From Perkinsus olseni (Eukaryota; Perkinsozoa; Perkinsida; Perkinsidae), in assembly GCA_013115135.1 (NCBI GenBank), contig JABANP010000223.1:17181-81180 (forward strand): DNA of 64,000 bases. The letters are read 5' to 3'. The notes beneath the pieces were generated by a model. That model did not search any database, was not told where the DNA came from, and was given only the letters and a program-made list of their open reading frames with translations. A program made the position numbers and the translations under genes. Shown piece after piece: positions 912 through 46,097 of this stretch. Every line of letters begins with the position of its first letter. Position 1 is the first letter of the stretch.

Positions 912-1963
912 TCAGAGCAACTGCCACCCCAACCACTCTAACCTACTACCGTTAAAATATCTCACGAGTAATATTTTTTCGACCTCAGCGTGAGAAAATT
1001 CATAGGGGAACTCTAAAGCCCATAGCAGCGTAATCGACCGATCGAATTTTCTTCTCCTAAATTTTGATTCTAGATCCCGACTTCCCTCCAGCTTACCACG
1101 CCCCGAGCGTCGCATAAGTATTGGATTTGAGCGTGAACCGGCTGCAGCTTCCCTCCAGCGGTCGCCAACTCGGCCAGAATTCCTTTCACGTATCTTCAGC
1201 GGAGGCAAATTGGCGCTCGGTGAGACGAAGTGACCCCACTTGACAGGCAGCTTCCCTCCTTCATCCTTGTTCTCCGCCTGGTCAAATTGAGCTGCATAGG
1301 TAGGATACTTCTCGCGGTACCTTTGCAGTAAATGAAAAATAACCATACCAACTTTCCGTCAAATCGCTAAAGAATGATAGCCGACCATGCGCAGGAACAA
1401 AGTGCAGCGACCGATGGCGCTGTGAACCAACCGATAAGAGTCGACCGCTGCTCACCCTTCCTCGCCTAACTCCGCTGCTGCAGCTGCTTGGCCGTCCGCC
1501 GCCGCTTCAGCGCCACTGCTGTTAGCTTCGACCTGAAAACAATATATGTAACGAGAATCGAACCCACGACCTCGGCATAGTAAACGTGTGTGACTGTCCA
1601 ACTGAGCTAAGCTCGCTGACATTTCAACGGTGTGGGAGAATGAGGACCCACCTGAGTTTGCTCTCCTCCCGCCTTCTCCTAACAACAAAAGTAAATCCTC
1701 CCGCAGCCACGATGCCCCTCCAAACTACCTCAGCATTCGAGTTCAACTGCGGGAGCTCTTCCTGCGTCTGCTGAGTAGGATCTTCACCGGCCTGTTCGGT
1801 CTGACCAACGGCAGGTCGCCCTGCAACTCACTGTAGCCCGACAGCCATCCTCTTCTACCGTAATCGGTTTGGACCCTTCCACTGCTTCCTTAGCATCAGC
1901 TGTGTCCTTGGCAGCCACCACTGCATTAGAATTACCTTTAGCGGCAGAAGCCCCACAGCCCAT
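912..1963 (-). CDS. Putative N-acylated acidic protein, MGCGAS start, copy A
   Basis: The protein begins M-G-C-G-A-S-A-A-K-G, a Gly2/Cys3 arrangement typical of proteins that are N-myristoylated and then palmitoylated, so membrane-inner-face location is likely (inference). Exons that join in phase are 1859-1963 (35 codons), 1729-1800 (24 codons, Gln/Glu-rich), 1652-1678 (9 codons) and 1456-1532 (Ala/Glu-rich), separated by introns of 58, 50 and 119 nt. A probable next exon encodes KVGMVIFHLLQRYREKYPTY and KWGHFVSPSANLPPLK, which is well conserved in copy B, but copy A has a TGA (about 1370) just upstream where copy B reads TGC. The 3' end near 912 is unsure because the copies lose common frame. 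Family not recognised; the tail may be a separate domain. The 119-nt intron carries a tRNA-like sequence. Confidence 0.5.
1533..1651 (-). other. 119-nt intron containing a tRNA-like segment with A and B boxes
   Basis: On the minus strand the intron runs from GTGGGTCCTC to TTTTCAG between two in-phase coding exons. Within it, at about 1550-1615, lies TTAGCTCAGTTGGA (a good pol III A box) followed about 30 nt later by GTGGGTTCGATTC (a good B box/T-arm). Acceptor pairing is reduced to about five bases (GCGAG with CTCGT) and the anticodon arm does not fold cleanly, so this is a decayed tRNA or tRNA-derived element, not a functional tRNA gene. The same intron is present at 10000-10118. Confidence 0.7.
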
Positions 1964-1986
1964 TAGAGTAAAGGAGTGCGCTAATA

Positions 1987-2024
1987 CTGAGAAGAACCCG
2001 GGTTCGATTCCTAGCCTTTGAACA
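1987..2024 (-). other. Possible 38-nt 5'UTR intron with antisense T-arm
   Basis: Just upstream of the MGCGAS start codon the minus strand reads GTGTTCAAAGG...TTCTCAG. On the plus strand this is CCCGGGTTCGATTCCTAGCC, a tRNA T-arm/B-box core, antisense to the gene. The copy-B equivalent is near 10455-10490. The splice assignment is weaker than for coding introns because no coding sequence lies upstream. Confidence 0.4.
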
Positions 2025-2276
2025 CCCACGAGAGTGGTCAGGTTTTATATCGGGCCAACGGTAAAGTCCCGCTCACCTACGTCCGACGACGAAGAGACTT
2101 CCGACGGAGACTTGGAAACCAAACAAAATAATCGATTGCAATGGCGAGCGCTTTTTGCAACATCATCAGCGCGCGCCCGGGTTCGTTTCCGTTTTGAAAG
2201 CCTGTCATATTCATGACGTTTGTGGATGATGGTGAGCCGCTTGAGCAGCTCAGAGCTCCTTCATCGGCACTGTTAG

Positions 2277-4846: not shown

Positions 4847-5123
4847 GTGACAAGGATGTTGTTTTTGTTATCAGTGTAGTCGGTCAGCAGCTCGCGTGGT
4901 CCGTGTTTCCGCTCCGAGTGTACGAGGTAACAGTCCAATGCAACTACCGTGAGGGTGTATCACATACAGGCCCTCATCCCGAAGCTCATTCGGCGGTCGC
5001 ACTAGTATCGTACTCATACCTCTCGACCTTCATACTAGGGCCGGCCACGGTTGACCAGCAGCCACTAACGCAACACTGGCCGAGTGCACATCAACAACAA
5101 CAGCCTTGCCACACATACACCCT

Positions 5124-5879
5124 TCAATGCCTTCTTGGACGCTTTCTCTCCCCATCCTCCTCATCTCTCATCTTTCTCTTGTGCGAGGACCGAGAGGCCT
5201 CCTGTCGTTCCTTCTTGCGTTTTATTTTATCAATCTCATGCAACATGTCATCTCTGACACCTTCATAGAACGCCGTCAGCCAGCTCAAGCCCCGGAAGCG
5301 GCCCACGTACTTCCCCGGGGGGTTGTCAATCAGCTCCTCTGCAATGCTGATGCATCGTTTCATATTCGTGTGCACGTCCGTGCTGTTCTTCAACGCGTTG
5401 CTCATCAGAATTTCCTTGCTCGTTTCAGTGAGCATCCTCCAGGGCGAAAAGCGCTGCATCGACTCACGGTGTCGAGTCCTACCACTCCTTGTCCAACTCC
5501 CAACGCTTAGCTACTATCAGTAGGACGTTCTCGTCTGTGAACTCCCTGAAAGGGATTCTGCGGAATACGGGTGATGTCGCAGCGACCTTACACGGTGTAT
5601 GAGTAATCATGGACTGAGTCCAACAACCACGATGTAGCGAGGCCATCTCTTTCATCGATTTTAACGGTGTACGACAAGGAGGGTTCACTTTGATAAAAGG
5701 CACACTCCAGTCTCTCGGTGGGGCTGACCATGATCTGAACAAGAGGACAAGTAGGAAGAGGGTCTGGGGTGATATCGTCGTACTCCCTCATCTCTCAAGG
5801 TCCTTTCATCAACGATGCGGGCAGTGGACGACGCAACCGATCCGACGGTAGACGCGAACAGAATAAAGTTGGAGATCAT
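5124..5879 (-). CDS. Putative secreted protein, PP-x-x-Y/W-repeat family (paralogue of 14750-15668)
   Basis: The start at 5879 gives a hydrophobic leader (MISNFILFASTVGSVASS), so export through the ER is likely. Exons 5592-5791, 5483-5557 and 5124-5436 join through introns of 34 nt (5558-5591) and 46 nt (5437-5482); the junction after the leader exon is unresolved. The C-terminal domain reads NMKRCISIAEELIDNPPGKY ... WLTAFYEG ... LHEIDKIKRKK and matches the gene at 15.3-15.67 kb in the pattern A-x2-II-D-x-PP-x2-Y...W...Y...M...K. The last 25 residues are very basic (KRKMRDEEDGERKRPRRH). No enzyme motif is visible. Likely a lineage-specific secreted family; function unknown. Confidence 0.55.
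5558..5591 (-). other. 34-nt intron
   Basis: GTAAGGTCGC...ATTCCGCAG. Removing exactly these 34 nt joins ...HDYSYT to VIPFREFTDENVLL in phase. It is one of several introns of this size in the window. Confidence 0.6.
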
Positions 5880-6068
5880 GATCACGATTCGGACACGCGG
5901 AAAACAGGCGAGAGTACAGGGTGTCAAGCACATTCTGCTGATGATCAGCAGCAGCTGATCCTATCTTGCTTCTACGCTGAAGCGGGCTAAGTGGAGGGGA
6001 TGACAAGAAGACAGCAGATGAAAGATATGATCCCGGATGGCAAAACTCGGGTGTTGTGCTCTTAATGA

Positions 6069-6323
6069 GTCGGCCCCTAACCAGGGGTTTCATGCGAGTA
6101 AACACAACAAAGACAACGTCATGCATCATCATGAAATAGCATCTCCGACCGCGAGGTCGTAGCTGGTGGGAGGTAGCATGTCTCGCCATACTCAGTAGCG
6201 TCGTAGCAGCACCAAACTCATCTCGAGTCCACAAGAACACCTACCTTAACAGGGCTACATGCATATCTTATCTTCTGGCTTCTTCCACATCATCCTTTTA
6301 CGATTTCATCCACCCCTTGTTTC
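6069..6323. repeat. Segmental duplication block R3, copy A (partner 10929-11200)
   Basis: GTCGGCCCCTAACCAGGGG through CACCCCTTGTTTC is repeated at 10929-11200 with few changes. Copy B has an extra 19 nt that create a 21-nt palindrome. A much more diverged third copy can be followed at about 11610-12040 against 6120-6560. Confidence 0.85.
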
Positions 6324-7487
6324 ACTAGATTCTTCATCGACGACCGGAACCAGCTGAATTGGCGAGGGAGTAGCAAACCGTCTGCAAGGGCGTCCTGTTA
6401 ACTCGAAACCCGAACTCATACACCTGTGTCTGTTTTCAAAAATGGCGGTCCATCTTCGGCAAGTTGCGGTAAAGTAAACCTCGACCAACTCCCGTGGGCT
6501 GAGCTTGGGGCCCTCACACTTTAAAGGACCCCCACACTACAGGACTCATGACTCGTGTCAATGCCCCCTCATCCTCAGCTGACGAACGCGCCATGAAGAC
6601 ACGGGAAGCAGAGCTGAGCTAACCGTAGCTGAGTTGACTGGAGCCTTCTGGAAGCCAAGCTAGCACGGCATAGCTGCCGTCTCCGCGTTCCCCAGGGAGG
6701 CGAGACGTGACCGCCTTGGTGAGGCGTGCGCGCAAGCCCGCCAGCTACGAGTGGGGAGATGATAGCCACTACAGCGAGCATCCGCCGAGCGTAGAGCATA
6801 TGCGCTCATTGTGTTGCGTGCGCACTCGCTTTGTCCCCGTATTTCACTGACGTACCAGTACGCGCACTGACCAAAATCCAGGGAAAAATTCCGCTCGTCC
6901 GCACTGGCCAAAGGCATCCGACCAGAATCCAGGACTCTGACCGAAACCCAAGGCGGGCGACCAACGTGCTTCCTGTGAAGTTTACACTGCGCGGCCCTCG
7001 GGCTTTAGGTGAAGGTCGCGCGGAAGGCGAGCTGAGTCGGGTTCACAGGGGTTACGGTCAGCACTCCCCCAGACTGGATAACAGCCTTGCCCTGGGTGAG
7101 ACGTTTTCGCTCACCCTGCGCTGTCTCCGGGGACAGCGCCCTTGGATTTTGTACTTTTCCTTCGATTTTGTCAGGTGTCCCGGAATTTGCGCTTTGCCCG
7201 TTCACAGCGCGTATTTTTGTGCGCAAAATGGTAAAGAGGAATTCCGGTAGAGTAATTACCAAAACACGTTCAAAATGCTTCCATGGAAGCATCTTCAGGG
7301 ATCGCCCCGGGTAACAGTTCCGGGACCGGGGTTTCGGGAAGGGTTTCTAATGTCCCGTTCCTGCCTTCACCCGCAATTCAGGTTTCTTGTCTTGTCTTGA
7401 AGACAACACGAGAAACCTGAGTGTCTTCGGCGAAGAGTCTTCGCCTGCTTGTCGCACGTGTTCGCGTGGGTCTTGCGTGGCCTGCTT
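6324..7487. other. Gene-poor spacer
   Basis: No coding exon is supported. Around 7139-7165 the phrase CTTGGATTTTGTAC occurs and recurs inverted near 34850-34870, suggesting a short dispersed repeat. The part up to 6560 is an old copy of sequence at 11850-12040. Confidence 0.4.
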
Positions 7488-7793
7488 GGCGTGAATCTTG
7501 ATAGTGAGGTAGAAGGAGGGATTGGCGTGGTAGAAGGCACATCTGCTCCCTCTAGGGGGCGTACCATAACATCAGCTAATCGTGGTGGTGGTAGTGGTGG
7601 TGGTGAGCATCAGTGCACTCCTTCTTGCATGATTATCAAAAACCCGAGTGGAGGTCCCCAAAGCTGAGCTGAGGACCAAGGCCGCTCGGACGCTGGCGTT
7701 TAACAGTCTTCTCTGTTTCGAAAGTCCCCAATAGGTGACACAACAGGGTTGAAGAGGATATGAAAAATCACGTAACAATGATATGCTGTTGCC

Positions 7794-8924
7794 CTACGGC
7801 TGTTGCTGCTGTCCCTGTCTCTCCAGAGAGACCATGCCCCCCTCAATGGCATCACTATTAGCCGGCACGAAGCGGCCTGTTTGCTCAGCTATGGTCTGCT
7901 GTACCCCTCCCAAATCGGGCTGGTACCTACCAGAGGCCACGGTCGCATTGATGGCTCCAAAGAAAAGCGTGGATGTAGCAGGTTTGTAGCCCATGGTCGC
8001 TGACGGTAGAATCGGGCGGTCGAGTCGTCCGGTATGCAGTACGACAGATGGCAGTGTTGAACTTCCCAGTACGGTGAGGCCACTGGAAAAGCACCCTAGC
8101 AATATTCGTGTGATATATAGCAAAAAACTTTGATTCGCTTTGCTCACATTTAATCATCATAATAAAGAAGTCTACGGCCTAACCTCCCTGGGGAAGCGAG
8201 AACCCCTGCGCACCCCTTCCACATCGCTATGCACAGCACGCCCATAACGACCATGTACACGCCAACTATGGCGTAGAGGAGGGTGAACTGCACCAACGCC
8301 AAGGAACCTTGGAAGAGGTAAAAGAGGCCTCTACCCCACAGCAGAGTGAGGAACTTCGCATGCTCGTATCTGGCCAGCCCAGAGGCAGATCTTCATGTCG
8401 ACTCAGAATCGGAATTTCCTACATCTTCTCCTGCCAGTGAACTCGCTCTCTCAACAACTCCGGGTTAGCCTCGAGAATGCAGGTGATCACACCGAAGAGA
8501 AATTGGTAACTACAATGACGGTTCGAAAACCAAGATCTGCAAGCCCAGCTCTCACGCGTTGCAAAGGTAATCGATAGGGTGCAGAATAGTGGAGAAGATG
8601 TTCAACACGCCTAGGGCGCCAGTGAGGGTGACGCCAAGACCTCCGACGAAGCAGAGGACTCGAAGACCGTTCGGGCCCTGTTGGATGTAATGATGGACCT
8701 GGGAGGGTGTGTGAGTACAATCAAGAGACCTTCACTCACCTGCACGAGGCCTTGCTGTGCCGCGTTGGAAGCCGCCAGAAGGGTTTGTCGTCCCATCTCC
8801 AGGGCCACCTAGCATTGGGGAAGCCGTGTGCGGGGTTGTTGCGTTTCGGAAGCACCTGGCCGGTAGCCTCGTTGAAGACAGGATTACTAGGATTGCTGCC
8901 TCCGCTGCTGCCGGGCATGGCCAA
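7794..8924 (-). CDS. COPI-associated family membrane protein, copy A
   Basis: Exons 8856-8924, 8740-8808, 8556-8698, 8423-8509 and 8369 downward are separated by introns of 47, 41, 46 and 53 nt and all join in phase. The product starts MAMPGSSGGSNPSNPVFNEA, has VHHYIQQGPNGLRVLCFVGG and a four-helix membrane core (GLGVTLTGALGVLNIF; QFLFGVITCILEANPELL; FLTLLWGRGLFYLFQGSLAL; LLYAIVGVYMVVMGVLCIA). This order and the KFLTLLWGRGLFYLFQGSL block match the COPI-associated protein family (Golgi/vesicle traffic, exact role unclear). The end is uncertain: reading on gives a stop after LLYYDD, but a probable tail exon at 7794-7999 (YKPATSTLFFGAINATVASG, Gln-rich end) is strongly conserved between copies and may be joined by a donor I could not fix. 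Confidence 0.7.
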
Positions 8925-9537: not shown

Positions 9538-10430
9538 CTAGTTCCCGACTTCCCTCCGCTTACCACGCCCCGTGCGTCGCATAAGTATTGGATTTGAGCG
9601 TGAACCGGCTGCATCTTCCCTCCACCGGTCCCCAACTCGGCCAGAATTCCTTTCACGTATCTTCAGCGGAGGCAAGCTGGCACTCGGTGAGACGAAGTGA
9701 TCCCACTTGACAGGCAGCTTCCCTCCTTCATCCTTGTTCTCCGCCTGGTCAAATTGAGCTGCATAGGTAGGATACTTCTCGCGGTACCTTTGCAGTGAAT
9801 GAAAAATAACCATACCAACTTTCCGGCAAATCGCTAAAGAATGATAGCCGACCATGAGCGGGAACATACAGCAGCGAACGATGGCGCTGTGAACCAACCG
9901 ATAAGAGTCGACCGCTGCTCACCCTTCCTCGCCTAACTCCGCTGCTGCAGCTGCTTGGCCGTCCGCCGCCGCTTCAGCGCCACTGCTGTTAGCTTCGACC
10001 TGAAAACAATATATAGAACGAGAATCGAACCCACGACCTCGGCATAGTAAACGTGAATGACTATCCAACTGAGCTAAGCTCACTGACATTTCAACGGTGT
10101 GAGAGAATGAGGACCCACCTGAGTTTGCTCTCCTCCCGCCTTCTCCTAACAACGAAAGGAAATCCTCCCGCAGCCACGATGCCCCTCCAAACTACCTCAG
10201 CATTCGAGTTCAACTGCGGGAGCTCTTCCTGCGTCTGCTGAGTAGGATCTTCACCGGCCTGTTCGGTCTGACCAACGGCAGGTCGCCCTGCAACTCACTA
10301 CAGCTCTAAAACCATCCTTTTCTACCGTAATCGGTTTGGACTCTTCCACGGCTTCCTTAGCATCAGCTGTGTCCTTGGCAGCCACCACTGCATTAGAATT
10401 ACCTTTAGCGGCAGAAGCCCCACAGCCCAT
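9538..10430 (-). CDS. Putative N-acylated acidic protein, MGCGAS start, copy B
   Basis: Same exon structure as the copy at 912-1963, starting at 10430 with M-G-C-G-A-S. The 119-nt tRNA-like intron is at 10000-10118. The exon containing YREKYPTYAAQFDQAENKDE and KWDHFVSPSASLPPLK is open upstream (AICRKVGM) where copy A has a stop, so copy B is more likely the functional one. Divergence from copy A is highest in the first intron (about 10290-10320), supporting that splice assignment. The true 3' end is unsure; the continuous reading stops at 9538. Confidence 0.5.
10000..10118 (-). other. tRNA-like intron, copy B
   Basis: Duplicate of 1533-1651. A box TTAGCTCAGTTGGA and B box GTGGGTTCGATTC are unchanged, while the anticodon-arm region differs at several bases (TCATTCACG against TCACACACG), with no compensatory pairing. 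It is therefore not under obvious tRNA selection. Confidence 0.65.
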
Positions 10431-10928
10431 TAGAGTAAAGGAGTGCGCTAATACTGAGAAGAACCCGGGTTCGATTCTCGCCCTTTGAACACCCACAAGA
10501 GTGGTCAGGTTTTGTATCTTTCCAATAGTAATGTCCCGCTCATCCACATCCGACGCAAAAAAAGAGACTTCCGACGGAGACTTGGAAACCAAACAAAATA
10601 TTCGATCGCAATGGCGAGCGCTTTTTGCAACATCATCGGCGCGCGCCGGGGTTCGACTCCGTTTTGAAAGCCTGTCATATTCATGAAGTTTGATGGTCCG
10701 CTTGAGCTCAGAGCTCCTTCATCGGCACTGTTAGGTGATCAGTAGCCCAACTCGCTGCTTGCATGCTCAACTGGAGGAACTGGAAAGGGCGTTACAGACC
10801 CCTCACCACCGTGAGTTACCAAAGGAGTGGTATGGACACGTCCTGGGTATAAAACCCCGGCTGTACAGATCCGATGAGGCGGATCTCTTGTCTTGTCAAT
10901 TTGGCTGCAAAGGTGCTTTGCCTCACCC

Positions 10929-17572: not shown

Positions 17573-19600
17573 ATGAATCTGAAACTGAGCGGAGCGATGC
17601 TGTCGGAAAGTGCTTCAACGCGATCATTCTTCATCTGCAGTTTAATCCATGCAATGTCAGGAGGTCCTTCGACGACTGTCTCGCCTCTCACCCTCATTCT
17701 GAGCGTCATCGCCGGCCTCTATGTTATATGGAACTATCGCACCCCAACGTGGAGCGCAGTACTGAGGGAGCCGCCCCTCAACTTGACCTCTTCTGTATCC
17801 AGCACGGTTGAAGTCGAAGATACTCTTGAAGAGTGTAGCCGCCGTGCGATGATTGGTCCTTCTGGAGAGGCTGATGGCCCTCGTGGAAAGAAGGTTTACA
17901 TCGACCTCGGAGCCAACGACGGATCCTCTTTAAAATATTTCTTCACCGAGTTCGCACCGGACAAACTGGGAGAGGTGAGTTCATCCTTCGTAGCCTTCCT
18001 TGTGCGTTGGCAGTGGTTAATAACATCATTCTGTATCATCCACATTTTGCGAAAAATTACGTAAAAAATTTTTTTCCGATTCAAATTGAGGAGGCTCTCA
18101 GGTCGAGTCTGCTAGGCAGGCTGCTGCATTCTCTTGAGTACAAATCACCAGATGTATCCTGTGGCGTGGAAGGTTGACCGTCTTGGATTAGACAAGCCTC
18201 CTTTCAACGCCCATCGAACCGACTGCTGGCAGAATTCGTTCTGCTGATCTGCCTACGGCTGCTCATTTCGCTGGCCGTTGAGAGTCTATTTATTTCGCCT
18301 TGATGGTTTGCAAGAGTACACAACTCTTCGTGTCTTTTGCGTACGCCCGGTTGCGACCTCGGATGCTCGGTCGTCTTCCTTTCAGCGGCAACTGAACTTG
18401 AGCGAGTGGGAGGCGTATCTTTTTGATCTCAACCCATTATGGAAGGACGACCTTAGAGCCCGATGCGCATTTTTCATCGATTTGGCTCGGTGCGAGGTCA
18501 TATTGGCCGGAGCATGGAATAATACTAAAACGATTGGGTAGTAGGGCTTCGATAGACGACGGTACCACTCTTGTTCCTTGAGAGAGGGCGAGTGCTGGCC
18601 AATCACAAAAGATAGGATCGTCGTGTTCGCGGCGATCTATTTTGAGATCGTACTGAGTGTCTCTTCAGTATCTTGGAATAGGGCTGAACGACCTCAGGAA
18701 AGGCTTCTCAGATTGTGCGGGATTAGCATCTTGAATTTTCGTTTCGAGAGCGCAGTGAGGGAGGGCACAATAGCTGGGAGCAGCGGAGGCTTCCTTGTTC
18801 CATCAAGAGCAATTCGACGGTCGAGCCTGCAGGCTATAAGAGCGCCATTTTCGATGGTCCGATTGCGCATCTGAGGGTTGTTGACGTTCATGGTACAGCT
18901 TGGCAGGTATTTTCATGACTTGACTGTTCATGACCGAGCTGATAGGAAGGACGCCGAGGCGAGGAAGGACAGGTCGGTTGGAACTAGCCTGTATGACCGG
19001 CAGTCTATGGAGAGAAAAGAAGGTCGGTGGGGATCGAACCTGGGTGTATTTCACGACTAATGCGATGCCCAGCCGTCAGGAGCACATCGCTTCCTTCAAG
19101 GAATGGTCCTCTGAAAGTGTAAGAGGATTTGTGGTCGCCGGCGTAGGTGAATGGAAGACAGATGGCTGCGTGGTCGACTTTATTGGATGGGTCAGAAGGG
19201 TTGTGCAGAACGATCATCGGCAGCAGGTGTTCCTCAAGGTCGATATAGAAGGAGCGGAGTAGTACTGTTTTGGCCTCCTAGAAGTCGCGGGTTCGATCCC
19301 GGTGGGTGGTATTTTTCAAGGTATACAGTTGTACGGGAACTCCTAGATTCGGGCGTACTGAAGGGCAGAGTCAAATGGGTCGCCATTGAGTGGCACGGCA
19401 AAATCGTGAGGAAAATAAAAGGCTGTAAAACGACGTGGATCTCCGCCATTCCGGATGGCGAATGATCTCATCTTAGTCGACCACAAGGCTCGTCAGGAGG
19501 CGATCATCAATGATCTGCAAGGCCCAGGGAGTCGAGTACATTCAATGGGGCTTTTAGTTATCAGCGGAGCGAAGCATGTACATGTTGTAATCTTTTCTGT
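17573..19600 (+). CDS. FkbM-like methyltransferase (multi-exon)
   Basis: Exon 17573-17974 (134 codons) has a hydrophobic anchor near residues 37-53 (PLTLILSVIAGLYVIWN) and the SAM-binding motif KVYIDLGANDGSSLKYFF. Exon 18386-18537 continues WEAYLFDLNPLWKDDL ... VILAGAWNNTKTI. Later exons carry VVDFIGWVRRVVQNDH and the family signature FLKVDIEGAE (to 19258), then after a 62-nt intron YTVVRELLDSGVLKGRVKW and WHGKIVRKIKG; an exon from about 19471 reads FDHKARQEAIINDLQGPG. This motif order is that of FkbM-type O-methyltransferases; the N-terminal anchor suggests a Golgi/ER type II protein acting on glycans or lipids (inference). The middle (18616-19200) is not fully resolved. Introns are 411 nt, then about 50-80 nt; two contain tRNA T-arm cores. 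Confidence 0.72.
19023..19072 (+). other. 50-nt intron with antisense T-arm core
   Basis: GTCGGTGGGGATCGAACCTGGG ends at GATGCCCAG, with a CTAAT branch-like site. Its reverse complement reads CCCAGGTTCGATCCCC, the canonical tRNA T-arm. It sits between SLYDRQSMERKE and the next exon of the FkbM-like gene; the splice call is moderately supported. Confidence 0.55.
19259..19320 (+). other. 62-nt intron with sense T-arm core
   Basis: Donor GA|GTAGTACTG, acceptor TTTTTCAAG|G. Removing it restores DIEGAE-YTVVREL, the family-typical order, so the intron is secure. Inside at about 19286-19302 is CGCGGGTTCGATCCCGG, preceded by CCTAGAAGT, as in the variable loop plus T-arm of a tRNA. Confidence 0.75.
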
Positions 19601-19679
19601 AGCTTTCACCCTTGTTTTGCGTTATATCAGTCCCAGTGTGGCCCCCCTTCGCGATTCTGTCGATTTCCTTTGAATATGA

Positions 19680-21030
19680 TGTTCTCTATTGATCACCGAT
19701 ATTTGTACCGTTGTGGGCAAATACGAGAGCTGAGAGTCGTCTTGGCGCTCAGGACTGGGGTCCCACAGACCAAGGGTGATCGTTCTTCCAGTTTTTATAG
19801 AAGTCCTATGACCCAGCCGGCATCGGTGAGGACGAAGGAATGACTACTGACGCTTATGAAGGTTATATAGGAGGGGATGGATTTCGGGCCGCGCGACGGT
19901 CTTGGGTTTCTTGTAGATGTACACGCTGGGGAAGTTGCTTACTTGCTAGAGCCTTTGGAAGATCGAAGATTCGATATACTGCTGTTGGTAATCGAAAGGC
20001 CGTGGGTTCTATCCCTGCGGACGACGTCAATGCCAGATACTCGTGGTACTGCTCGTAGTGTGTTGTTGCCGAAGGCATCGTCATCGACGGTATCGCCAAT
20101 TGCCTCAAACACAATATGTGGTAATATGGCGCTGGTTTTCTCCCAAAAAATGTACGAAGCAAACTCGCCTAACCTGGCTCGGTTGTCGGGCGGACTGGAT
20201 CTTGTAGGGGCGTTTCGCTCGCTGTTCGTCGTTAGAATCCTCTCCGAAATTTGAAGACAAAAAACTAAACGGTTTTGGTCAGAAAGCGACTCGCCAGGGA
20301 GCTAAACCAACCCTTTCATAGCAAACGTCTTCGTTGCAGAGAATTTTTAGACATTCAATGGTGCGCCCTTTGTGGGATATGCTCCTACGGGCCCTTTTAC
20401 CGAAGCTTTTCCCGTGCAAGTTTGGCACTATACTGTGCAGGCAATCCTTCTTTTTTCCTTAGGAACAAACACGACAAATTCGGGAGGGAAAAATATCGAA
20501 AAATCGCTGTTGCTAGAAATTTGTTGCGCAGTATACCTGGGCGAGCGCGACAAGGCACATCAGAGCCTCTGATTCAGAGGGTTGCGCAGCCTCGTGGTTG
20601 CTATTCTGACGGAGCTGTCGATGACGCCACCCAGTATGGCGTCTGCCAGTTGGAATAAGCTCTCTTAGGAATGACCGAGAAGTAGATGAAACTAACGCAA
20701 CGCGGTGTCTGGTGGAGATGACGCAGAACAGATGTGACGAAAAAGATATTTTCCATACAAGGCTGATTGCCGACAGACTACACTCGTTTTGGAGTTCCTT
20801 GCCTCCTGATTGTCCCCGGGGCCAGCGCTACTCGAGGCTCACCGGGAAGATGAGTCGATCGAACAAACACCTTGGGAGCCGAGATGAGGAGACTATGCGA
20901 TAGGGCCGGTGTAGAACGCAAGTTGGGGTGAGATACGTGGATATGCGTGAAAAAGAAAGGACAATATCTCGGGACCCAACTGGCTGGTCGAGTAGCACTA
21001 CACGTCACGGGGTGATAGTATCAAAATGGA
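19680..21030 (+). other. Unresolved region with a candidate T-arm intron
   Basis: Short open stretches exist but no recognisable protein. At about 19988-20039 the plus strand reads GTAATCGAAAGGCCGTGGG followed by TTCTATCCC and ends in ATGCCAG, which looks like an intron containing a tRNA 3' half (anticodon-loop end, variable loop, T-arm). Coding on either side is not established. Confidence 0.35.
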
Positions 21031-21035
21031 CCAGC

Positions 21036-21956
21036 TTACTGGCAGAAAAGATCTAAGCTTTGAGGTTGATGAGTCGACCGATAGACGGGAGTTGACAATG
21101 GACTAATAAGTTTGGGGATAGATGATGCCACTCGCGGCGTTTGCGGGAGGCAGACTACTGAACTCGAGAGAGAGCTCGTGTGCGTCCTCCGATAGTCACA
21201 AAGATCGTATCCTTTAGTAATGAAAGTGACCTGTAATAGATCGGTGCTCTGTACACCAGCCTTGGGGCAATCAGACTGTACCATCTGGATAAGTGCATAT
21301 GGCGGGGTGAGTCCTACGGACCTCACATTGTAGGGCATACCCCAGTCGGGTCGAGTGAGCTTGAAGACGAAACGGGGAGTGATGCTGCCGCCGTCACACG
21401 AAGCCTGTATACCCACAGCACCAGCCGAATGAACGCGATAGCTGAGCCTTAGGTGAGGAGCCTTGGTCTCGTAGTACTCGAACTCACCGGGAATGAGGGG
21501 TATGGAACCCTCTCGAACTCGATCACCTCGTTACGGAAGTTGGTGGTGAGGGTGTCACCACTCGTGTAAGTCAAAGTGGTCAAGTCTCCAGTCTGGATAC
21601 CAGCCAGTGGCTCGTCAGCCTTCGCGTCGCCAGCCTCTTGTAGTTGAAGCTTAATGGATTCATACCAAGACATAACGCTGATCCTGCTGAGGTCGAAGGT
21701 GTAGGTGTTATCTCTGATGTTCGAGAGGGGGTATGGTCCGAAGTAATTCCGCAGGTGGCGGGAGGGAGTCCCTGGTGGGGACCCGGGTGGAGGAGGAGCT
21801 GTCGAGGCGAAACCAAACGAAGCTTGACCTTGCTCGTCCACTCTGTAAGTTATGTTGTAGACACCCACCTCTGTGGACGAAGTTGCCGTAAGGCTGAGCC
21901 GTAGTGATGACCAGAAGTTGAGCGGGGATGAGCCAAGTTGAGATGAAGTTCATCAT
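21036..21956 (-). CDS. Putative secreted protein, lineage-specific (frame shifts or micro-introns)
   Basis: The start at 21956 gives a leader MMNFISTWLIPAQLLVITTA. Downstream segments read YGNFVHRG, VYNITYRVDEQGQASFGF, TYTFDLSRISVMSWYESIK, TGDLTTLTYTSGDTLTT, IPGEFEYYETKAPHLRLSYR, GIQASCDGGSITPRFVFKL and PYALIQMVQSDCPKAGVQS, which together look like one beta-rich extracellular domain. Two one-base frame changes (about 21866 and 21520) separate the segments; they could be removed by introns of about 23-28 nt, but these would be extremely short, so pseudogenisation or sequencing error is as likely. No enzyme motif. I class it with the other exported families in this window. Confidence 0.5.
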
Positions 21957-21959
21957 TGA

Positions 21960-22900
21960 GAGATTGAGTTGAAGGCCAGTTTCAAGAAGCTGAGGCGAGT
22001 TTACTGAGCTAGCCTAGCTCCTCTTAGCTAGGCTCGGCGATGCCTCGGAATGCGATAGGCATTCAATGAGGTTAGCAGCCGTGACGCTGACGAGCGACGT
22101 GCACTGTAACTCGGTACAGTGTGGCGAACTGAGACAGGGTTCAAAGGGTGGTAGAACCGTGAGGCTCGAGCGGAGTAGACCGATATCGACATCCTGTGGC
22201 GGAAGCTAGCCTAGCGTGAGCTCTAGCCTAGAACGCATACTCATGCAACGCGAGGTCAGACGGTTATCTGAGGCAAATGATACTCAGTAGGAGTAAAGGC
22301 AATTGCAGCGATGGTAGTCAAACAGCTGTCGTGAAGGTGTCCCCTGGTGGAAGAATGCACTCCAGGGCGTCGTATGGTATCACCGGTGTTGATGACTTGA
22401 TTATTGTGATTCGCAAGGGAGAAGACTTACATGAGTTAGTATGCAGGCTGCGGTGGACGAACTTCGCGAGAGTGCCGAATCGTGATACCCCGAAGACTTC
22501 TGCCAATCGACCCTTTAGGCGCTTGCTCATATGATCAGCTAACTTAGATGAGCTAGGCTTGAACGTTCATCGTTTGCTTGGAAGTGTCTTTCTTGGCACG
22601 GGGAAAAGGCAACGTTGGGTGGCCACACTGACAGTGCTTGGTTGAGCGATGTTGAGCGATGTCCTCCGGCCTGGCTTTCATCTGAGCAACCCGACCTCTC
22701 AACCAACCTTCTGAGTATTGGGATTGAGGTCTTGAAGGACTGCTGTGACGTAAATGAAGCATGAATGATCAAAGTTCCAAAGCTCAGGTGGCGCATCACA
22801 CTCAGGCTTTCAACTGGCGTGCCACATGAGTTCCGTCATTCTCGATTGATCCGAGTCGGTGAGCGTTGTCATTCTCGAGCGGTAATCATGGAAAGGCTTA
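21960..22900. other. Mostly unassigned; weak small ORF on minus strand
   Basis: A minus-strand reading at 22318-22530 (MSKRLKGRLAEVFGVSRFG...) has a basic N-terminus and might be a small mitochondrial-type protein, but nothing else supports it. Repeats of GAGCTAGCCTAGC-like short words occur around 22005-22230. Confidence 0.25.
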
Positions 22901-22909
22901 TTTTTGATG

Positions 22910-22992
22910 AGGAGCCTTCGCACTTTCTATCAGACATAACAAGCCTTGATAAGGCTGCCTTCAGATGTCTGATAGAACGTGCGAAGGCTCCT
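22910..22992. repeat. 28-bp inverted repeat forming a long hairpin
   Basis: The arm 22910-22937 (starting AGGAGCCTTCGCAC) and the arm 22965-22992 (ending GTGCGAAGGCTCCT) pair over 28 bp with one mismatch. The 27-nt spacer contains its own small hairpin AGCCTTGATAAGGCT. An ORF (22765-23265, plus) runs through it but resembles no protein. Confidence 0.9.
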
Positions 22993-23269
22993 GCGAGTCG
23001 CTGGAGGGGCCGCGGGACAAGCGATATGCCACCACAGAATTTGCTGATGAGTCGATGTATGCCACATGAATCGGCGGACAGTTATCAGCATCAGCTGATA
23101 TCTTCATCGTTTGTAGTTCCTGCATGGTGGGCCGCCGCGAGAGCCGAGTGGGGGGCAAGGGAACATCTACTCAGTAAGAAGAGGGCCTCTCACAGACCAT
23201 TGGTATTGCTCTTGTTCAAGCATCGTCTTGTTCCCGGCCAATGGGCTCTTCTCGGTTATCAATGATCTC

Positions 23270-23900
23270 GCCGTGCGAGTTGCCATTTGTCTTGAACAGC
23301 AGAGCGTATCTTTTTGGCAGGGTCCCCGAGCGCTCCCTCAAGGCTTCGACCCTAATGCACGGCCACCGCCCTTCAACCCTCAGTATTGATCTAAGCTGTT
23401 TCCTGTGATGACAGCGTTCGAGTTTCGCGGGTATATGAGGAGCTGTCGTTCTGTCAGTGATTGTTATGCATCAAACGGTTCATGTAATGGGCTCGTCGTC
23501 GGACTCAGCGCACAGCTCTGATGCTTCGCACACTTATGTGGAAGATCGGAAGAGACGAAGCGGTACGCCAAGGATACGCGGACTCCTCATTCTTGTTTGG
23601 AGAGCATTCGTCTGTTGTTGTTGTTGATACGCTTCCATCGCTCCCTGTAGAGTCCGATTCCTTCTACAATCACTCGGTAGCGCTCGGTTGTCGAACGTTG
23701 ACGGGACGCTCTCAGCCTGCGACTGCTAGTGTGGCACCCTGGGGTCTGCTCCTTAACCTGTCCCTGGTTACAGTCGAGATCGGATACACCCGGGCTGTGT
23801 TCTGCGGTTCACACTTCGAAGTGATGATACTCGCGATTCTACGTTCTCGTCAGGTCTGGTGTCGCTGAGTTTGCTTTTTCCGGTGGTTGACGACTTCACG
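23270..23900. other. No supported gene
   Basis: Only short ORFs. It may hold upstream exons or the promoter of the small membrane-protein gene that starts at 23901. Confidence 0.3.
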
Positions 23901-24254
23901 ATGGTCCAGTGGATAGGAGTTGGCTCGATTGCCGCTGGTGTTCTCGGAGTCATCACTAAGGTGCATTTCAAAGTCACTTGTTGTTCGATGGCTGACTGTA
24001 TCCTCGTCAGATTGTCGTCAACTACCCGCTTGTGGTTGCTGTGGCAGTGGGCGCAGTTGTTATGACGGTGGGCATATACTGCAAAGTAAGTTTCATGCGA
24101 AAGGTCCCTGGTTCGATCCGGGCGAAGACCTTTTTAGGTTCGGTCGAGAGGGTTATTGGTATACCTCCCAGAGGGTCTTCAGAGTCTTCTTTTACATTCT
24201 TCAGTATTTGACTTGCTGGTTGATCGCAGAGGCGTTACCAAGTTCTCCCGGTGA
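23901..24254 (+). CDS. Small two-helix membrane protein, three exons
   Basis: Exons 23901-23960 (20 codons), 24011-24085 (25 codons) and 24138-24254 join in phase across introns of 50 and 52 nt. The product begins MVQWIGVGSIAAGVLGVITK and continues IVVNYPLVVAVAVGAVVMTV, two Gly/Ala/Val-rich hydrophobic segments, then a basic stretch. The reading stops at a TGA (24252-24254) that overlaps a good donor (CCG|GTGAGAAG), so further exons may exist and the C-terminus is unsure. No family recognised. The second intron carries a tRNA T-arm. Confidence 0.6.
24086..24137 (+). other. 52-nt intron with sense T-arm core
   Basis: GTAAGTTTCATGCGAAAGG...GACCTTTTTAG. It contains TCCCTGGTTCGATCCGGGCG, a T-arm preceded by AAAGG as in a tRNA variable loop. 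The run of five T before AG may double as a pol III stop or as the polypyrimidine tract. Flanking exons keep frame. Confidence 0.72.
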
Positions 24255-24597
24255 GAAGAAAAACTGCAATCGTGAATCGCTTCGCTCCGCCGCGGATGTT
24301 GAAATGATTCCCTCAGATTGATGCAGAGATTGATATTCATCGCTTTCAATCCTCGGTTGTCGGAGAAGTCTCTGCGAGAGTGCCTCATGGGAATGGACGA
24401 GGTGGGAAGGGGGACGGCTGGAGGGTGCTTTCCGACGTAATTATCCTATCTGAGCTAGGAGAGATGATGTAGAACACTGGGGGCTCTACGGTAGTTGCAT
24501 GTGAGAAAAAACTGAACGTGCAGCGACGGTGGGGCGAGCACACCCAGATGTCGGTACTGCGGAGCAACCGACCATGGGTTTGAGAGAACTCGGTATT

Positions 24598-24692
24598 GAA
24601 GGGAGTTTCAAACCTTGAACTCTTGAATTTCCTCAACGAGTGACTCTACAAAAGTGGAAGCTTTGTGGGATTATTGTTGATAAGTAACTAAG
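24598..24692. repeat. Dispersed repeat related to the arms of the 57.95-58.95 kb palindrome
   Basis: GAAGGGAGTTTCAAACCTTG ... TTTCCTCAACGAGTG ... GGAAGCTTTGTGGGATTATT parallels GGGAGTTTCAAAACTTCGTG ... TTTCTCAACGACCG ... GAAACTTTGTGAGCTTATT at 57958-58045. This gives a third, diverged copy of that sequence. Confidence 0.7.
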
Positions 24693-24897
24693 CGGCGCGT
24701 CATGAAGGATGCTGCCTTTGAGGGAGTTGACGGCTGTCGAGGTTCGGCATCGTTATTCAGAGCATAACGGGAAGATGAGTCCCGCTCGTGGCGATCATCA
24801 TTGTTTTGCCAGAGTTGGTGGTGAAATAACTCGTGTGCGACCTCGACAGCGGTGGTGATGGTCGAGGCAGGCCTCAGCGGGATGTTCTCTCGTTCAG

Positions 24898-25123
24898 GAT
24901 TTCCTAGAGAAGGTGCTCCAGCCGGGACTGGCTCATTTGCTCCCGAGGAAAGTGCAGAAAGCGCTGATGCCTCCATCTCGCATTAGCGAGCAGTATGAGG
25001 TGAGTGGTGACGGGGTTGAACCACGGGCCTTCGGGATGAGAGGCTGCTGCATTGATTCAGGCACCAGCGGGTCTTCCGAGCATCCGGATCGACCGGAGAA
25101 TGGCTGGTGATATAATTGAGTGA
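24898..25123 (+). CDS. Unknown protein, last two exons seen
   Basis: After an acceptor TCGTTCAG the exon 24898-24999 (34 codons) reads DFLEKVLQPGLAHLLPRKVQ and SRISEQYE. A 61-nt intron (25000-25060) leads in phase to APAGLPSIRIDRRMAGDIIE and a TGA at 25121-25123, which could instead be part of a donor (GA|GTGAGTATAC). Basic and Pro/Leu-rich, no family recognised. Upstream exons were not found. Confidence 0.45.
25000..25060 (+). other. 61-nt intron with antisense T-arm core
   Basis: GTGAGTGGTGACGGGG ... TGATTCAG. Its reverse complement reads CTCATCCCGAAGGCCCGTGG followed by TTCAACCCC, that is anticodon-loop end, variable loop and T-arm of a tRNA in antisense to the host gene. Confidence 0.6.
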
Positions 25124-33239: not shown

Positions 33240-34568
33240 TCACCACTCGTCTGTTCGCCTCCTACTGCACCCTAGTCGAACAAGCCAGGCTAGAGCAGAG
33301 GAGAGTCGCGTTGCTCGTCTGCAGCGAGCTGAGTGATGCTCTTCCCACAACTCGGGCTTCACAGCTTCGTTCACAACGGGCCTTGGCGGAGTTGCAATAC
33401 CGACTTTATTGCCATCAAAGTCGACATACAAGTCGTGTTCTATGAAGAAGGGCTGGCCCAGTTGGAACGCATCGAAAGTCGGATAACTCTTCAAGCCTTT
33501 CTGCAACGAAATTTCACACCAACCCACCTCGTCGCAAACTTGCACATGATTGCTCAGATGGAGCTCAAAGAATGTGTCCGCGTCTTCTTTAAAAACGATA
33601 ACAGGGAGCTTATCGACTATAGTCCTGCGTACCACGATGCAATCATCACCCCTTAGGATGGCATCCAGCCCCAGGACATCTGTAGGGTGTGTCCTCACCG
33701 ACCTCCAGCCGACACGTTGCGGGCCAACCTCGGCTTGAATAGCATCCAGGACCATTGTAAAGAACTTGTCAGGAACCGTGGTCCAACTACTGCCAGTGTC
33801 AATCACCACTTCAAGAGGCTTTTGCGCGTCCGCGTGGCTGAAGTCGCTCACTCGATCCCGGATGGTAGGGCTCCTCACTTGAACGCTCGATACCGTTATC
33901 GCGAAGGGGGCTTTAGCAAACGAGAACCCCACCAGGGAAAAAATGGTCATCGCTGATGTTTCATCGGGGAACTCGCCTAGCACTAGCTGACCCGTTATCG
34001 TCACAGACAGCTTTGATGCGTGAACCGAGAAAGCAGTCTGAGGGATTTGTCGTAAACTCGTGAGCTGTTTGAGGAAGGGCGGCATCACAGCTCCTCCTTC
34101 TCCTGCGCTGCTACGTGAAGGTATGCTCAGCCCGAGGAGAGCATACGGTTGAAGGCCGCTTTGAGCACGCGTGCATCCCACCACGAGACCCATCTGTAGG
34201 TTTCTGATCTCTCGCTCGCCAACTTTCATCGTCACATTACGAATAACGAAGTCTACGCTGTGGCCACTGCCGAAGTAAGCTGGGTGTATCTTCTGACTGA
34301 GCAGGGTGGTGAGGTTGCACGGGTTGGTCCGGGGGCAAAAGTAGCAACCCGTGCGAAGGTACTGGCAAGACCCAAGGCCGTAGATGCTCTCATACCAACC
34401 TCCATAAACTATATACGACTTAGCGCTTCCAGTGTCCACGCGCAGTCTCACAGGCCAGCCATCAAACTTCATCTCTACTTCGTTGCGCTCCATCGGAACA
34501 CGAAGCGCTAAGGAAACCGAAGCCGACTGCAGAGCAGCCGTCAAAGAGAATATTGCGGGTATTGACAT
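33240..34568 (-). CDS. Pepsin-like aspartyl protease (A1 family), single exon
   Basis: An intact 442-residue reading frame. The leader MSIPAIFSLTAALQSASVSL indicates entry to the secretory pathway. The first catalytic motif is R-V-D-T-G-S-A-K-S-Y (about residue 44) and the second V-I-D-T-G-S-S-W-T-T-V-P (about residue 256); both Asp residues are present. The C-terminal lobe has LGQPFFIEHDLYVDFDGNKV, the usual end of the fold. Between them lie MGLVVGCTRAQSG and YALLGLSIPS, the hydrophobic-hydrophobic-G element. There is no long pro-segment, so activation may differ from pepsinogen. Length fits the family. It is the longest clean ORF in the window outside repeats and has no introns, unlike its neighbours. 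Confidence 0.93.
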   Translation of the reverse strand: MSIPAIFSLTAALQSASVSLALRVPMERNEVEMKFDGWPVRLRVDTGSAKSYIVYGGWYESIYGLGSCQYLRTGCYFCPRTNPCNLTTLLSQKIHPAYFGSGHSVDFVIRNVTMKVGEREIRNLQMGLVVGCTRAQSGLQPYALLGLSIPSRSSAGEGGAVMPPFLKQLTSLRQIPQTAFSVHASKLSVTITGQLVLGEFPDETSAMTIFSLVGFSFAKAPFAITVSSVQVRSPTIRDRVSDFSHADAQKPLEVVIDTGSSWTTVPDKFFTMVLDAIQAEVGPQRVGWRSVRTHPTDVLGLDAILRGDDCIVVRRTIVDKLPVIVFKEDADTFFELHLSNHVQVCDEVGWCEISLQKGLKSYPTFDAFQLGQPFFIEHDLYVDFDGNKVGIATPPRPVVNEAVKPELWEEHHSARCRRATRLSSALAWLVRLGCSRRRTDEW

Positions 34569-35740: not shown

Positions 35741-36440
35741 ACGACGGTCTCAACCCCAGCAGGTGGCCAAACCTCCTATTTTCTAACGTTCTTTCACGTA
35801 GCCGTGTTGAATATGAAAGTTTCATCGTGAAACGCGACAAATGTTACTTGAAAGGGGCTGCTGCACAGAGCAAAGCATCATGTATAGTGCTGTGTTAATT
35901 GACTAAGATTGATATAAGGTTGATTAAGAGCGATTCGTGTATGTCCACTCGCCATGATGCAGACGATCATAGTCTGGCCTTCGCCCTTTACGGAGTCGCC
36001 GCTTCAGAGGCGGCGTGCTGGCTTCGCTACCTGCGGATGATGGAATCTTCGCTCGAATTAGCGGTAAATGGAGCTCGTGGAGACGCTAGCTACTGAGCTT
36101 ACCCCTGCATTCATCATCTTCGCGGCCTCTTTTCAGGTTTTCGCTGTGGCTTGGCTCCCGAACTGTGTCCACCATCGAAGCGCTCAATTCCGAGGCCGGA
36201 TGTACCTTAGTGTGAGTGTGTTCTCAATGTTGTGGTAGGAGCTTGTTCACCTCTCGAGTATGGCCTTCAGGGCTCCCACATGAATGCCGTTGATTAGTTG
36301 TGGCCGAGGAAGGCGCACCACCTAACAACTGTGATGTAAGAGTCTTCAATAGGACCCCGTGATGAGTGAATTCGCGATGAGTGCTCAGTAGTTATCAATC
36401 TAAGATTTACTGCTTGGTTGTCCTTGACCAGGTTCTGGCA
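35741..36440. other. Spacer, no gene seen
   Basis: Short ORFs only. It ends near the C-terminus of the MULE transposase gene. Confidence 0.35.
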
Positions 36441-36442
36441 GC

Positions 36443-38689
36443 TCAATCGGTGGCAACATGTCCTAGTGAGAGACAACACATACATGCTAGCTTCTTCGCT
36501 AGTCCTACATCGGGTAATTCTGCATCCTCCTCGTCCGAACCATCGTCCGCCGAGCGGTTTTGTGCTGTTGCGGGAAGTTCCTTGCTCCCATATGAATGTG
36601 CCTCTGTGGTCTCAGGTAATTCTGCCGCCATTGCTGAGTCTCCCATGAAGAGACGCCGAGGTACAGGCAAACCAGGCTTCGGCGGTCTGGAGCGCTGTCG
36701 TCCACGCACATCTGGTTTGTTACTGGACTCCTGCGGTGGTGATCCTATGGCCTTCGCCGCTTGTGGTAAGGTCAGCCTCGGAGGGTCCTGCCCGACCAGT
36801 GATGCCACGAGTTCTTGATTGCGCTTAGCATACGACTTGTCAATCTCTCTGGCCGATGTTCGTGTGTACCTGAATGCCGGAAGTGCTCGCACTCGACTGA
36901 GGAGGTCTATCTAGTCTATTTTATCTGCTCGCTCGATATTCTTAGTATGTGTATGGCATTAGTATAGTGGAGCGATTAGTCATTGGGAGTCATAGAGAAA
37001 TTCAATCTTCCCACAATTCATGCATGCTCAACATTCTTATCCTAGGTACATCACCGGATTCCATTACTACTGTGGTTGACCTCTTGGAGCTCCTCCCGGT
37101 ATCTGGAGCAGCCGCAAGTCGTGACCAGGTAAGTTTGATTCCATCAGTAGAACTCCGATAACATGAACGCATTTCCCGCTCCTCCCAGAATAGCAATTGC
37201 ATTGGTATCTTGGTGTTGATCTTTGGACCACAGTCACATTCTTGTTCAGAGATAAGTACTCTTCCCAATCAGTCCATGCGGTTACCGTCTCAGAATGATA
37301 CTTCCTCGCGAATTCACTCATCTTTTTGTCCAGCTCGTCCGTACCCTTCCGACACACTGATATCATCCCGCTAGATGGAATATAGTAGGTAGCGGAATCC
37401 TCGCTGATGTAGATGTGTTGCGCGGGCCGACTCCTTGTCCAATTTGACCCTGCGATAGCGATGCTCCTCTCCACAGGTTTCTCGGCCGTTCCTCTTTGCG
37501 CATCCATTGCGGCGTTGGCTTCGTGGCGTCTGCTATAATAGAAGCACGCATTGGTCTGCTGGGCAACCAACTCTGCTATCGATGAGCCTGGGATGATGAG
37601 ACCTGACATAGACGTCGAGATGAATACTACTACTACCACAACTACTACTATGACAATGACTACTACTATGACAACGACTACTACTATGACAACGACAACT
37701 ACTATGACAACGGCTACTACTATGACAACGGCTACTACTATGACAACGGCTACTACTATGACAACGGCTACTACTATGACAAGGGCTACTACTATGACAA
37801 CGACTACTACTACTATGACAACGACTACTACTATGACAATGACTACTACTATGACAACGACTACTACTATGACAACGGCTACTACTATGACAACGACTAC
37901 TACTATGACAGGGGCTACTACTATGACAACGACTACTACTATGACAATGACTACTACTATGACAACGACTACTACTATGACAACGGCTACTACTATGACA
38001 ACGACTACTACTATGACAGGGGCTACTACTATGACAACGGCTACTACTATGACAATGACTACTACTATGACAATGACTACTACCATGACAACGACTACTA
38101 CTATGACAACGACTACTACTATGACAACGACTACCACTATGACAACGACTACCACTATGACAACGGCTACTACTATGACAATGCCTACTACTATGACAAT
38201 GACTACTACTATGACAATGACTACTACTATGACAACGACTACTACTATGACAACGACAACTACTATGACAACGGCTACTACTATGACAATGACTACTACT
38301 ATGACAACGACTACTACTATGACAACGACAACTACTATGACAACGGCTACTACTATGACAACGGCTACTACTATGACAACGGCTACTACTATGACAACGA
38401 CTACTACTATGACAAGGGCTACTACTATGACAACGACTACTACTATGACAACGGCTACTACTATGACAATGACTACTACTATGACAACGTCTACTACTAC
38501 TACTACTACTACTACTACGACAACGACAACTACTATGACAACGGCTACTACTATGACAACGGCTACTACTATGACAACGGCTACTACTATGACAACGACT
38601 ACTACTATGACAAGGGGCTACTACTATGACAACGACTACTACTATGACAACGGCTACTACTATGACAATGACTACTACTATGACAACGT

Positions 38690-38720
<31 letters not shown>

Positions 38721-41074: not shown

Positions 41075-41079
41075 TAATA

Positions 41080-42620: not shown

Positions 42621-42633
42621 GCAGGGATGCGTG

Positions 42634-43172
42634 GGGTTCACCTACGGAAACCTCGTATGTCAAGGGAGAGCCCCTCTGCGGGGGCTGGATCCCAGTCGCT
42701 GGAGGCTTCCCACCTTGACTCTCGCATCAGAGTCCACCGCGAGAACAGGCGGAGTCTCGTCAATTTGCGATGAGCTGATGATCTTCGCATTGCCGATCAG
42801 CAAGAGCGTCTGTGAGGCTTCGAGCTCGCCTCTACTACGAGTGAGTCGGCAGATAGCTCGAATGGCGTCCTAAACTTACCGGTGAGCCCAGCCCGTGACC
42901 TGGATGACTCCAGTTTGATCCTCGATCATGATGTTCGTCCCGCGACCAGCATCAGCTCCGTGATCGGCGCCCTGAAGTAGACTCCAAACCTTAGTCTTAG
43001 CCAGGCCGATCCGCTGGTCTCACTTCCCGGACAACAACGCCGCGTACATCTACTCTGGTTCTGCCCTCTGACGCGAGTTCCGGGATGGACGCGATATCCC
43101 GTAACCTGATATTCGGGTAGGCACCGGTCGCGCAATCCGGAAGAATCGAAAGGCATTACTTGTATATAGACG
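42634..43172. repeat. Segmental duplication R4, copy A (partner 60585-61123)
   Basis: Close copies starting at GGGTTCACCTACGGAAACCT and ending near CATTACTTGTATAT. They cover the last three exons of the RPA1-like gene. Confidence 0.9.
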
Positions 43173-43860: not shown

Positions 43861-43929
43861 AGATACTATCTGGCAGATAGTCCCGGCTGTTGCTAAGCTG
43901 ATCAGGAATGATGTTCTCCCCTGTCACCC

Positions 43930-45099: not shown

Positions 45100-45120
45100 A
45101 TGGGCAATGATTGAATGCGA

Positions 45121-45730: not shown

Positions 45731-46097
45731 CTGAGCCGGGCATTTCGGGAAGTTAGTAGACAGGTTGCGAGCTTCAAGTCTCGGTGGACTCCTGTCTGGC
45801 TGGAGCCCGGGAGCGGCGTCCGAAACCTAGAATAGGTCGATGAGTAATCAAGCTTACTCAGATCGTCCTTCTAACCCACCTGTTGAGCCGTATCCACCTG
45901 ACGCTCGGCATATTCCTTAGGATCTCTTACTGACCGCCCCTGAGAAGTGTGACGCGCCTCACAGCCTACGAGTGGGAGGCTGCGAAGCTCCTACCTGTGC
46001 ATTCCGGAGATCGTCGAGCGCCCTCTGAACAACTGCTGCCCTCCTGAGCCTTTCCTCTGCGTCGAGCATTCCAGCGAGCGGGAGTCCTGCCAACGCG

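Follow-up and report, generated by a model that had tools for sequence, protein, structure and literature searches.

The genome of Perkinsus olseni contains a diffuse family of elements, about 45 bp long, that resemble the 3' half of a transfer RNA (tRNA), and copies that lie within genes are probably removed as short spliceosomal introns that the insertion of the element would itself have created. The family was analyzed in a 64-kb stretch of contig JABANP010000223.1 (positions 17,181 to 81,180; hereafter the window), which belongs to the scanned genome of 61.5 Mb in 968 contigs, and at loci (L-numbered, e.g., L137) that represent genomic places sampled around matches to a T-arm-like core or to a longer motif.

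The exact core, GGTTCGATCC, occurred 1,682 times in the genome (845 and 837 on the two strands), compared with 97 occurrences (45 and 52) of the reversed pattern that served as the control for genome counts, and with at most one mismatch it occurred 8,540 times compared with 3,162. The longer motif AGGTYNNNGGTTCRANNC, which has tRNA spacing and includes the tRNA variable loop, was found 1,644 times in the genome and 7 times in the control. Genuine tRNA genes contribute to the exact-core and longer-motif counts: they account for at least 18 of the exact cores, 11 of the first 100 places matching the longer motif lay in a single tRNA array on contig C14, and five of the 60 longer-motif loci fetched next were true tRNAs that were later removed. 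The window contained three exact cores and 11 matches with at most one mismatch, compared with 4.54 expected, and only one of 100 shuffles reached 11; two pairs among these matches fall in one duplicated segment. The excess of the core is thus confirmed as real genome-wide. The original prediction had reported the core to be commoner than chance and had named six short segments of the window as introns carrying it or a one- or two-base variant; both the excess and the presence of such a match in all six segments held up. With a threshold of 14 bits, a weight-matrix scan detected eight elements in 45.5 kb of the window (the scan omitted the repeat stretch at 36000-54500), and 36 elements, compared with 0.67 expected, in all 95.5 kb scanned, which includes 50 kb of 10-kb loci picked because they hold cores. 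Rough hand estimates gave about 13,500 copies with a core identity of about 81% per site (from the exact and one-mismatch excess), or about 8,000-11,000 copies (from the eight window elements per 45.5 kb, or six when the duplicated segment is counted once), and the family is therefore roughly of the order of 10,000 copies.

Alignment of 101 distinct exact-core copies confined conservation to approximately -12 to +26 around the core, which corresponds to the part of a tRNA from approximately position 40 up to the discriminator base, plus a T-run. A second set of 60 loci agreed and extended conservation back to the T that precedes the anticodon, so that in both sets together the conserved part covers about tRNA positions 33-73 plus the T-run. 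The likeness to a tRNA 3' half through the variable loop and T-arm, which had been noticed from the window alone, was therefore borne out by the alignments of both sets. The consensus of 170 copies was TGGTAATCGAAAGGTCCCGGGTTCGATCCCCGCAnnnGGCATTTTT (bases of its first part were partly below 40%, and open positions are given as n); it comprises the anticodon loop, an AGGTC variable loop, the T-arm, the acceptor strand, a discriminator A, and the T-run, about 45 bp in all, and divergence among copies was estimated by us at about 20% per site. Eleven loci were left out of the 170-element set, namely coding chance matches (L054 and L072), a palindromic locus (L050), and true or suspected tRNAs (L081, L105, L113, L153, L167, L175, L176, and L179); near-duplicate copies were also dropped. 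An A box of the form TAGCNNA, the only form counted genome-wide, preceded 39 of the 1,682 cores at a gap of 27-46 nt, and 18 of these 39 were plain tRNA-Thr or tRNA-Asn by eye; more than 97% of the cores were without that form. Among 131 copies, shared flanks were found only in four duplicated pairs, one of them on a single side, and no common body or tail was found beyond those pairs. In the window, neither ARAGORN nor Rfam (at E up to 5) matched a whole tRNA. Since conservation is limited to the 3' half, the A box is mostly absent, and flanks are not shared, the unit is a short element resembling a tRNA 3' half.

Protein homology indicates that such elements are spliced out. At 19 loci, the suggested intron was removed and the spliced peptide was searched against Pfam; the loci were hand-picked because a protein was recognized or the splice sites were liked, and the outcome of 12 out of 19 is thus not a rate for all elements. 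In these 12 loci, which are introns of unrelated genes sharing one consensus, a Pfam domain crossed the predicted junction, with the element in sense orientation in 11 and antisense in one; the match exceeded the Pfam curated cut-off in eight. The matches across the junction were as follows.

L003, kinesin, 1.4e-16.
L065, GTP cyclohydrolase, 5.6e-27.
L129, helicase, 1.6e-16.
L137, kinase, 4.2e-10.
L142, ketopantoate hydroxymethyltransferase, 2.5e-20.
L166, zinc ribbon, 4.5e-23.
L169, SNF2, 2.6e-25.
L203, Tudor-knot, 5e-12.
L045, metallophosphatase, 6.2e-4, below the cut-off.
L118, tubulin, element antisense, 9.9e-6, below the cut-off.
L165, alpha/beta hydrolase, 5.1e-5, below the cut-off.
Window 19259-19320, FkbM (PF05050), 4.5e-4, below the cut-off.

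The supported introns were 46-74 nt long, and those of L203, L165, L169, L137, L142, and L166 (46-53 nt) consisted almost wholly of the element. The FkbM-type methyltransferase gene of the window has matches at 84 and 90% to two proteins of P. olseni, and the protein models P0010 and P0011 read KVDIEGAE/YTVVRELLD, as would be expected from the exact removal of 19259-19320.

The orientation of splice signals around the elements also points to introns. In 153 elements, a set without the 16 copies that had been selected for a GTAATC-like motif, GTRAG occurred upstream 23 times compared with five for its reverse complement, and downstream the reverse complement occurred 21 times compared with four for GTRAG; donor-like sites therefore faced the element from both sides in 44 cases compared with nine (p = 6e-7). 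Inward and outward donors numbered 13 vs. 3 upstream and 14 vs. 2 downstream in the first set (n = 92), and 10 vs. 2 and 7 vs. 3 in the second set (n = 60), which was chosen regardless of splice sites. Near-equal numbers of inward donors on both sides are as expected if the element forms introns whichever way it is oriented. In the far upstream flanks, the two forms were near even (16 vs. 14). At 70-120 nt downstream of the core, GTRAG was commoner than its reverse complement (17 vs. 7), and these sites are perhaps the donors of the next intron. Sense and antisense copies with inward donors differed in the acceptor region, each being G/T-rich on the intron strand.

Introns were additionally predicted ab initio by a small gene model that used dynamic programming and had 1,846 codons as its training set, and which replaced a first, naive splice caller that had given weak enrichment (17 of 76 elements at a score of at least 10, compared with 5.6% of 800 controls). 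The model predicted 205 introns in the 95.5 kb, occupying 15.6% of bases. After two true tRNAs and one opposite-strand duplicate were subtracted from the 36 matches, 19 of the 33 elements (14 sense and five antisense) lay within predicted introns, compared with 6.4 at random, and none of 2,000 randomizations gave as many. This caller may produce false introns; it also missed the supported intron at 19259-19320, and the figure of 19 may thus be low. On the plus strand of L039, positions 1856-8694 contained 35 predicted introns, nine of them with an element (five sense and four antisense). Together, the overlap and the donor counts uphold the earlier proposals that T-arm-like elements fall in introns of unrelated genes more often than by chance, and that they do so in both orientations.

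A copy within a gene would be spliced out with a short spliceosomal intron, of which it forms a part or almost the whole. In sense orientation, the anticodon-loop region (GTAA or GTGA) may act as the 5' splice site, with the T-run providing the pyrimidine tract before the AG. In antisense orientation, the donor would come from the tRNA end and its flank, and the acceptor from the end of the anticodon loop. A more specific account, held tentatively and at a little under even weight, is that thousands of introns arose through the spread of a tRNA 3'-half element together with its terminator, the anticodon loop serving as the sense donor and antisense copies being spliceable as well. The tRNA-derived, intron-like mobile element that had been suggested from the window comes close to the explanation preferred here.

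Several observations weigh against element insertion as the source of these introns. No Pfam match crossed the junction in seven of the 19 loci, which included one-sided matches only (L084 and L087, the latter antisense), no match at all (L078, L097, L104, and the antisense L114), and a match at chance level only (L174). The antisense loci L087 and L114 thus gave no match across the junction, and only one of the 12 supported introns is antisense. The deposited P. olseni proteins are themselves gene-model predictions; at the antisense candidate 19023-19079, P0010 reads through in frame, and P0011 is without that stretch, inside a larger missing piece. Predicted introns with an element were not shorter than the other 186 (medians of 71 and 66 nt), so that some copies may sit in longer introns and an own intron for each copy is not proven. 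Systematic target-site duplication was not detected in 112 elements (mean match score of 5.77 compared with 5.62 in permutations, p = 0.08); duplications suggested at L142 and L121 did not hold across other copies. An empty site was not found in the one paralogue family compared, the three kinase paralogues of L137, all of which carry the same intron. That insertion is thus older than the duplications, and by hand counts the intron is about 85% alike among the paralogues and the exons about 90%. Because neither a target-site duplication nor an empty site was found, we infer, rather than observe, that element insertion created introns; that it does so equally in both orientations is likewise inferred.

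With regard to how copies moved, the genome yielded at least 150 matches to reverse transcriptase, so that copying machinery is present, and reverse splicing alone would not readily explain why copies occur in both orientations. Truncated 3' ends of long interspersed elements were rejected as a source because the copies share no upstream sequence. The favored route is that copies may have moved by reverse transcription of a tRNA-like RNA through one of the many retroelements of the genome.

An ordinary dispersed tRNA-derived repeat, such as an old short interspersed element (SINE) or tRNA pseudogenes, could land anywhere and be tolerated in introns without creating them. This explanation would account for the excess on both strands genome-wide, for the 14 of the 33 elements outside predicted introns, for the few copies that keep an A box (e.g., window 1533-1651), and for the lack of a difference in median intron length. 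Nevertheless, it seems unlikely, since the near-all-element introns of 46-53 nt (L137, L142, L165, L166, L169, and L203) leave no room for a host intron of earlier date, donor-like sites on either side are directed toward the element, and the tested A-box form is kept in less than 3% of cores. That selection maintains the T-arm-like core as a signal in DNA or RNA, for example a B box for TFIIIC or a splicing signal, with the tRNA likeness being secondary, is very improbable. The core, which is the B-box consensus, and the composition of the acceptor region, which differs between sense and antisense copies in line with the intron strand, would agree with selection, but the tRNA likeness spans about 40 nt and holds to single-base spacing, a signal read in RNA would be lost when the element is inverted, and the kinase-paralogue intron is no better kept than its exons.

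Separate events from different tRNAs, as originally proposed, would correspond to independent captures of many different tRNA 3' halves, for example as break-repair filler. Acceptor-strand positions that vary widely around a constant T-arm, the lack of target-site duplications, and flanks shared only by duplicated pairs are in line with such captures. Copies of assorted working tRNAs should, however, keep paired T-stems, and no T-stem covariation was found among 169 elements: the three variable pairs were paired in 77, 102, and 70 elements compared with 74.8, 103.9, and 77.1 in permutations. One further true tRNA-Ile had been left out of this test and of the donor test. Nor did the elements closely match 58 true tRNA 3' halves, a comparison set that is without several isotypes; the median best identity was 0.70 and the best was 0.80, apart from one true tRNA-Ile. 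A search found no full tRNA with the acceptor GGCAGGT/CACCTGCCA. Separate tRNA sources are thus not supported and this origin is improbable, whereas the sequences fit one old, diverged family or possibly a few. As a hint rather than proof, a Thr-type arm may have founded the family: the anticodon loop of a true tRNA-Thr(AGT) in L179 contains AGTAAGC, which offers a ready 5' splice site, and in 30 of the 32 copies with TAATCGAAAGGTC this motif is preceded by G, which yields GTAATC. True tRNA genes were also seen in tandem arrays, repeating about every 170-185 bp, at L037, L038, and L022 (contigs C179, C778, and C823), comprising Thr(TGT), Ile(TAT), and Arg(TCT).

The window contained the following elements in shown, candidate, or predicted introns.

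19259..19320, plus strand: 62-nt intron of the FkbM-type methyltransferase gene, mostly element and T-run, element sense, core at 19290-19299; PF05050 across the junction and P. olseni protein models.
24086..24137, plus strand: candidate 52-nt intron, GTAAGT...TTTTTAG, element sense, core at 24110-24119; from sequence, 32.8 bits.
19023..19079, plus strand: candidate intron with GT...CAG ends, element antisense, core at 19031-19040 on the minus strand, 21.4 bits.
25000..25060, plus strand: candidate 61-nt intron with GAG/GTGAGT...TTCAG ends, good donor, weak antisense element, core starting at 25022 on the minus strand, 12.1 bits.
19988..20058, plus strand: 71-nt intron predicted ab initio, beginning GTAATCGAAAGGCCGTGGGTTCTATCC, element sense, 28.9 bits.
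1533..1651, minus strand: 119-nt intron predicted ab initio, containing an almost complete tRNA-like sequence with both A box and T-arm, element sense, 26.8 bits.
10000..10118, minus strand: duplicate of the 1533-1651 intron in the duplicated segment, predicted ab initio, 25.7 bits.
1981..2076, minus strand: 96-nt intron predicted ab initio, element antisense, core at 2001 on the plus strand, 23.6 bits.

The six segments of the original prediction fared unequally as introns: an intron is shown for 19259-19320, and the others are candidates, predictions, or, for 3123-3201, not counted as an element, its core having two mismatches and lying outside the best 45 weight-matrix matches. The boundaries 19023-19072 proposed earlier should be replaced, as the splice sites would be at 19023-19079. 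The segment 24086-24137 has a strong element and splice ends, yet the ab initio caller predicted no intron there. A second copy of the 1981-2076 element lies at 10468, and positions 1500-2100 and 10000-10500 form a duplicated segment with two tRNA-like elements, 8.5 kb apart. Elsewhere in the window, positions 33240-34568 contain a pepsin-like (A1) protease gene; all nine homologues listed are from P. olseni (the best 86% identical), and the family thus has at least nine relatives in this species. Two tandem-repeat stretches of open reading frames (37067-39474 and 47357-53606) feature simple-repeat frames, which occur on both strands, and a unit SVTYRAPGH...QSWVRELK that recurs.

The origin of introns is a long-standing question, and Perkinsus is an early-branching relative of dinoflagellates. 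If the proposed explanation is true, a tRNA-like family would add an RNA-gene source of introns, and most of the requirements of splicing could be packed into about 45 bp, perhaps whichever way the element is oriented; an early-branching dinoflagellate relative would also gain its own case. On the more specific and more tentative account, parts of genes transcribed by RNA polymerase III would have been a mass source of the spliceosomal introns of RNA polymerase II transcripts. A paper on tRNA-derived introns in Perkinsus was not among the matches listed in a literature search, and most of the subscription literature lay outside that search.

The elements share with cellular tRNA genes the spacing of the variable loop, T-arm, acceptor strand, discriminator, and T-run, but mostly lack the 5' half and show no stem covariation. 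SINEs usually retain the 5' part of the tRNA with the A and B boxes. Like tRNA-derived SINEs, the Perkinsus elements have a tRNA-like sequence, a high copy number, and both orientations; unlike them, more than 97% of exact-core copies lack the tested A box, and 131 copies showed no common body or flank. An intron of a rice catalase gene is reportedly derived from a SINE. Introners are the closest known kind, since there, too, entire introns in genes unrelated to one another are built from related sequences. The element and the intron have nearly the same extent in six of the homology-supported loci, and the other introns are longer. An introner survey reported 548 families in 175 genomes, with five to more than 2,000 copies per genome and median lengths of 30-654 nt; some families have neither target-site duplications nor terminal inverted repeats, and according to the abstract most introners are consistent with DNA transposition (Gozashti et al., 2022, PNAS, PMC9860276). 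A term search of its main text returned no mention of tRNA, SINE, or Perkinsus. In contrast to the introners described in that text, the Perkinsus consensus is a tRNA 3' half and its copies have diverged. The Perkinsus element nonetheless likely belongs among introners, an assignment that rests on grounds other than presence or absence of the intron at a site. Amoebophrya and dinoflagellates, relatives of Perkinsus, are likewise reported to carry mobile introns in the form of introner elements, and those of Amoebophrya are described as forming part of its non-canonical introns and as carrying both inverted and direct repeats (PMC7789003; PMC11453091). Compared with these, the element introns of Perkinsus look GT-AG and tRNA-like.

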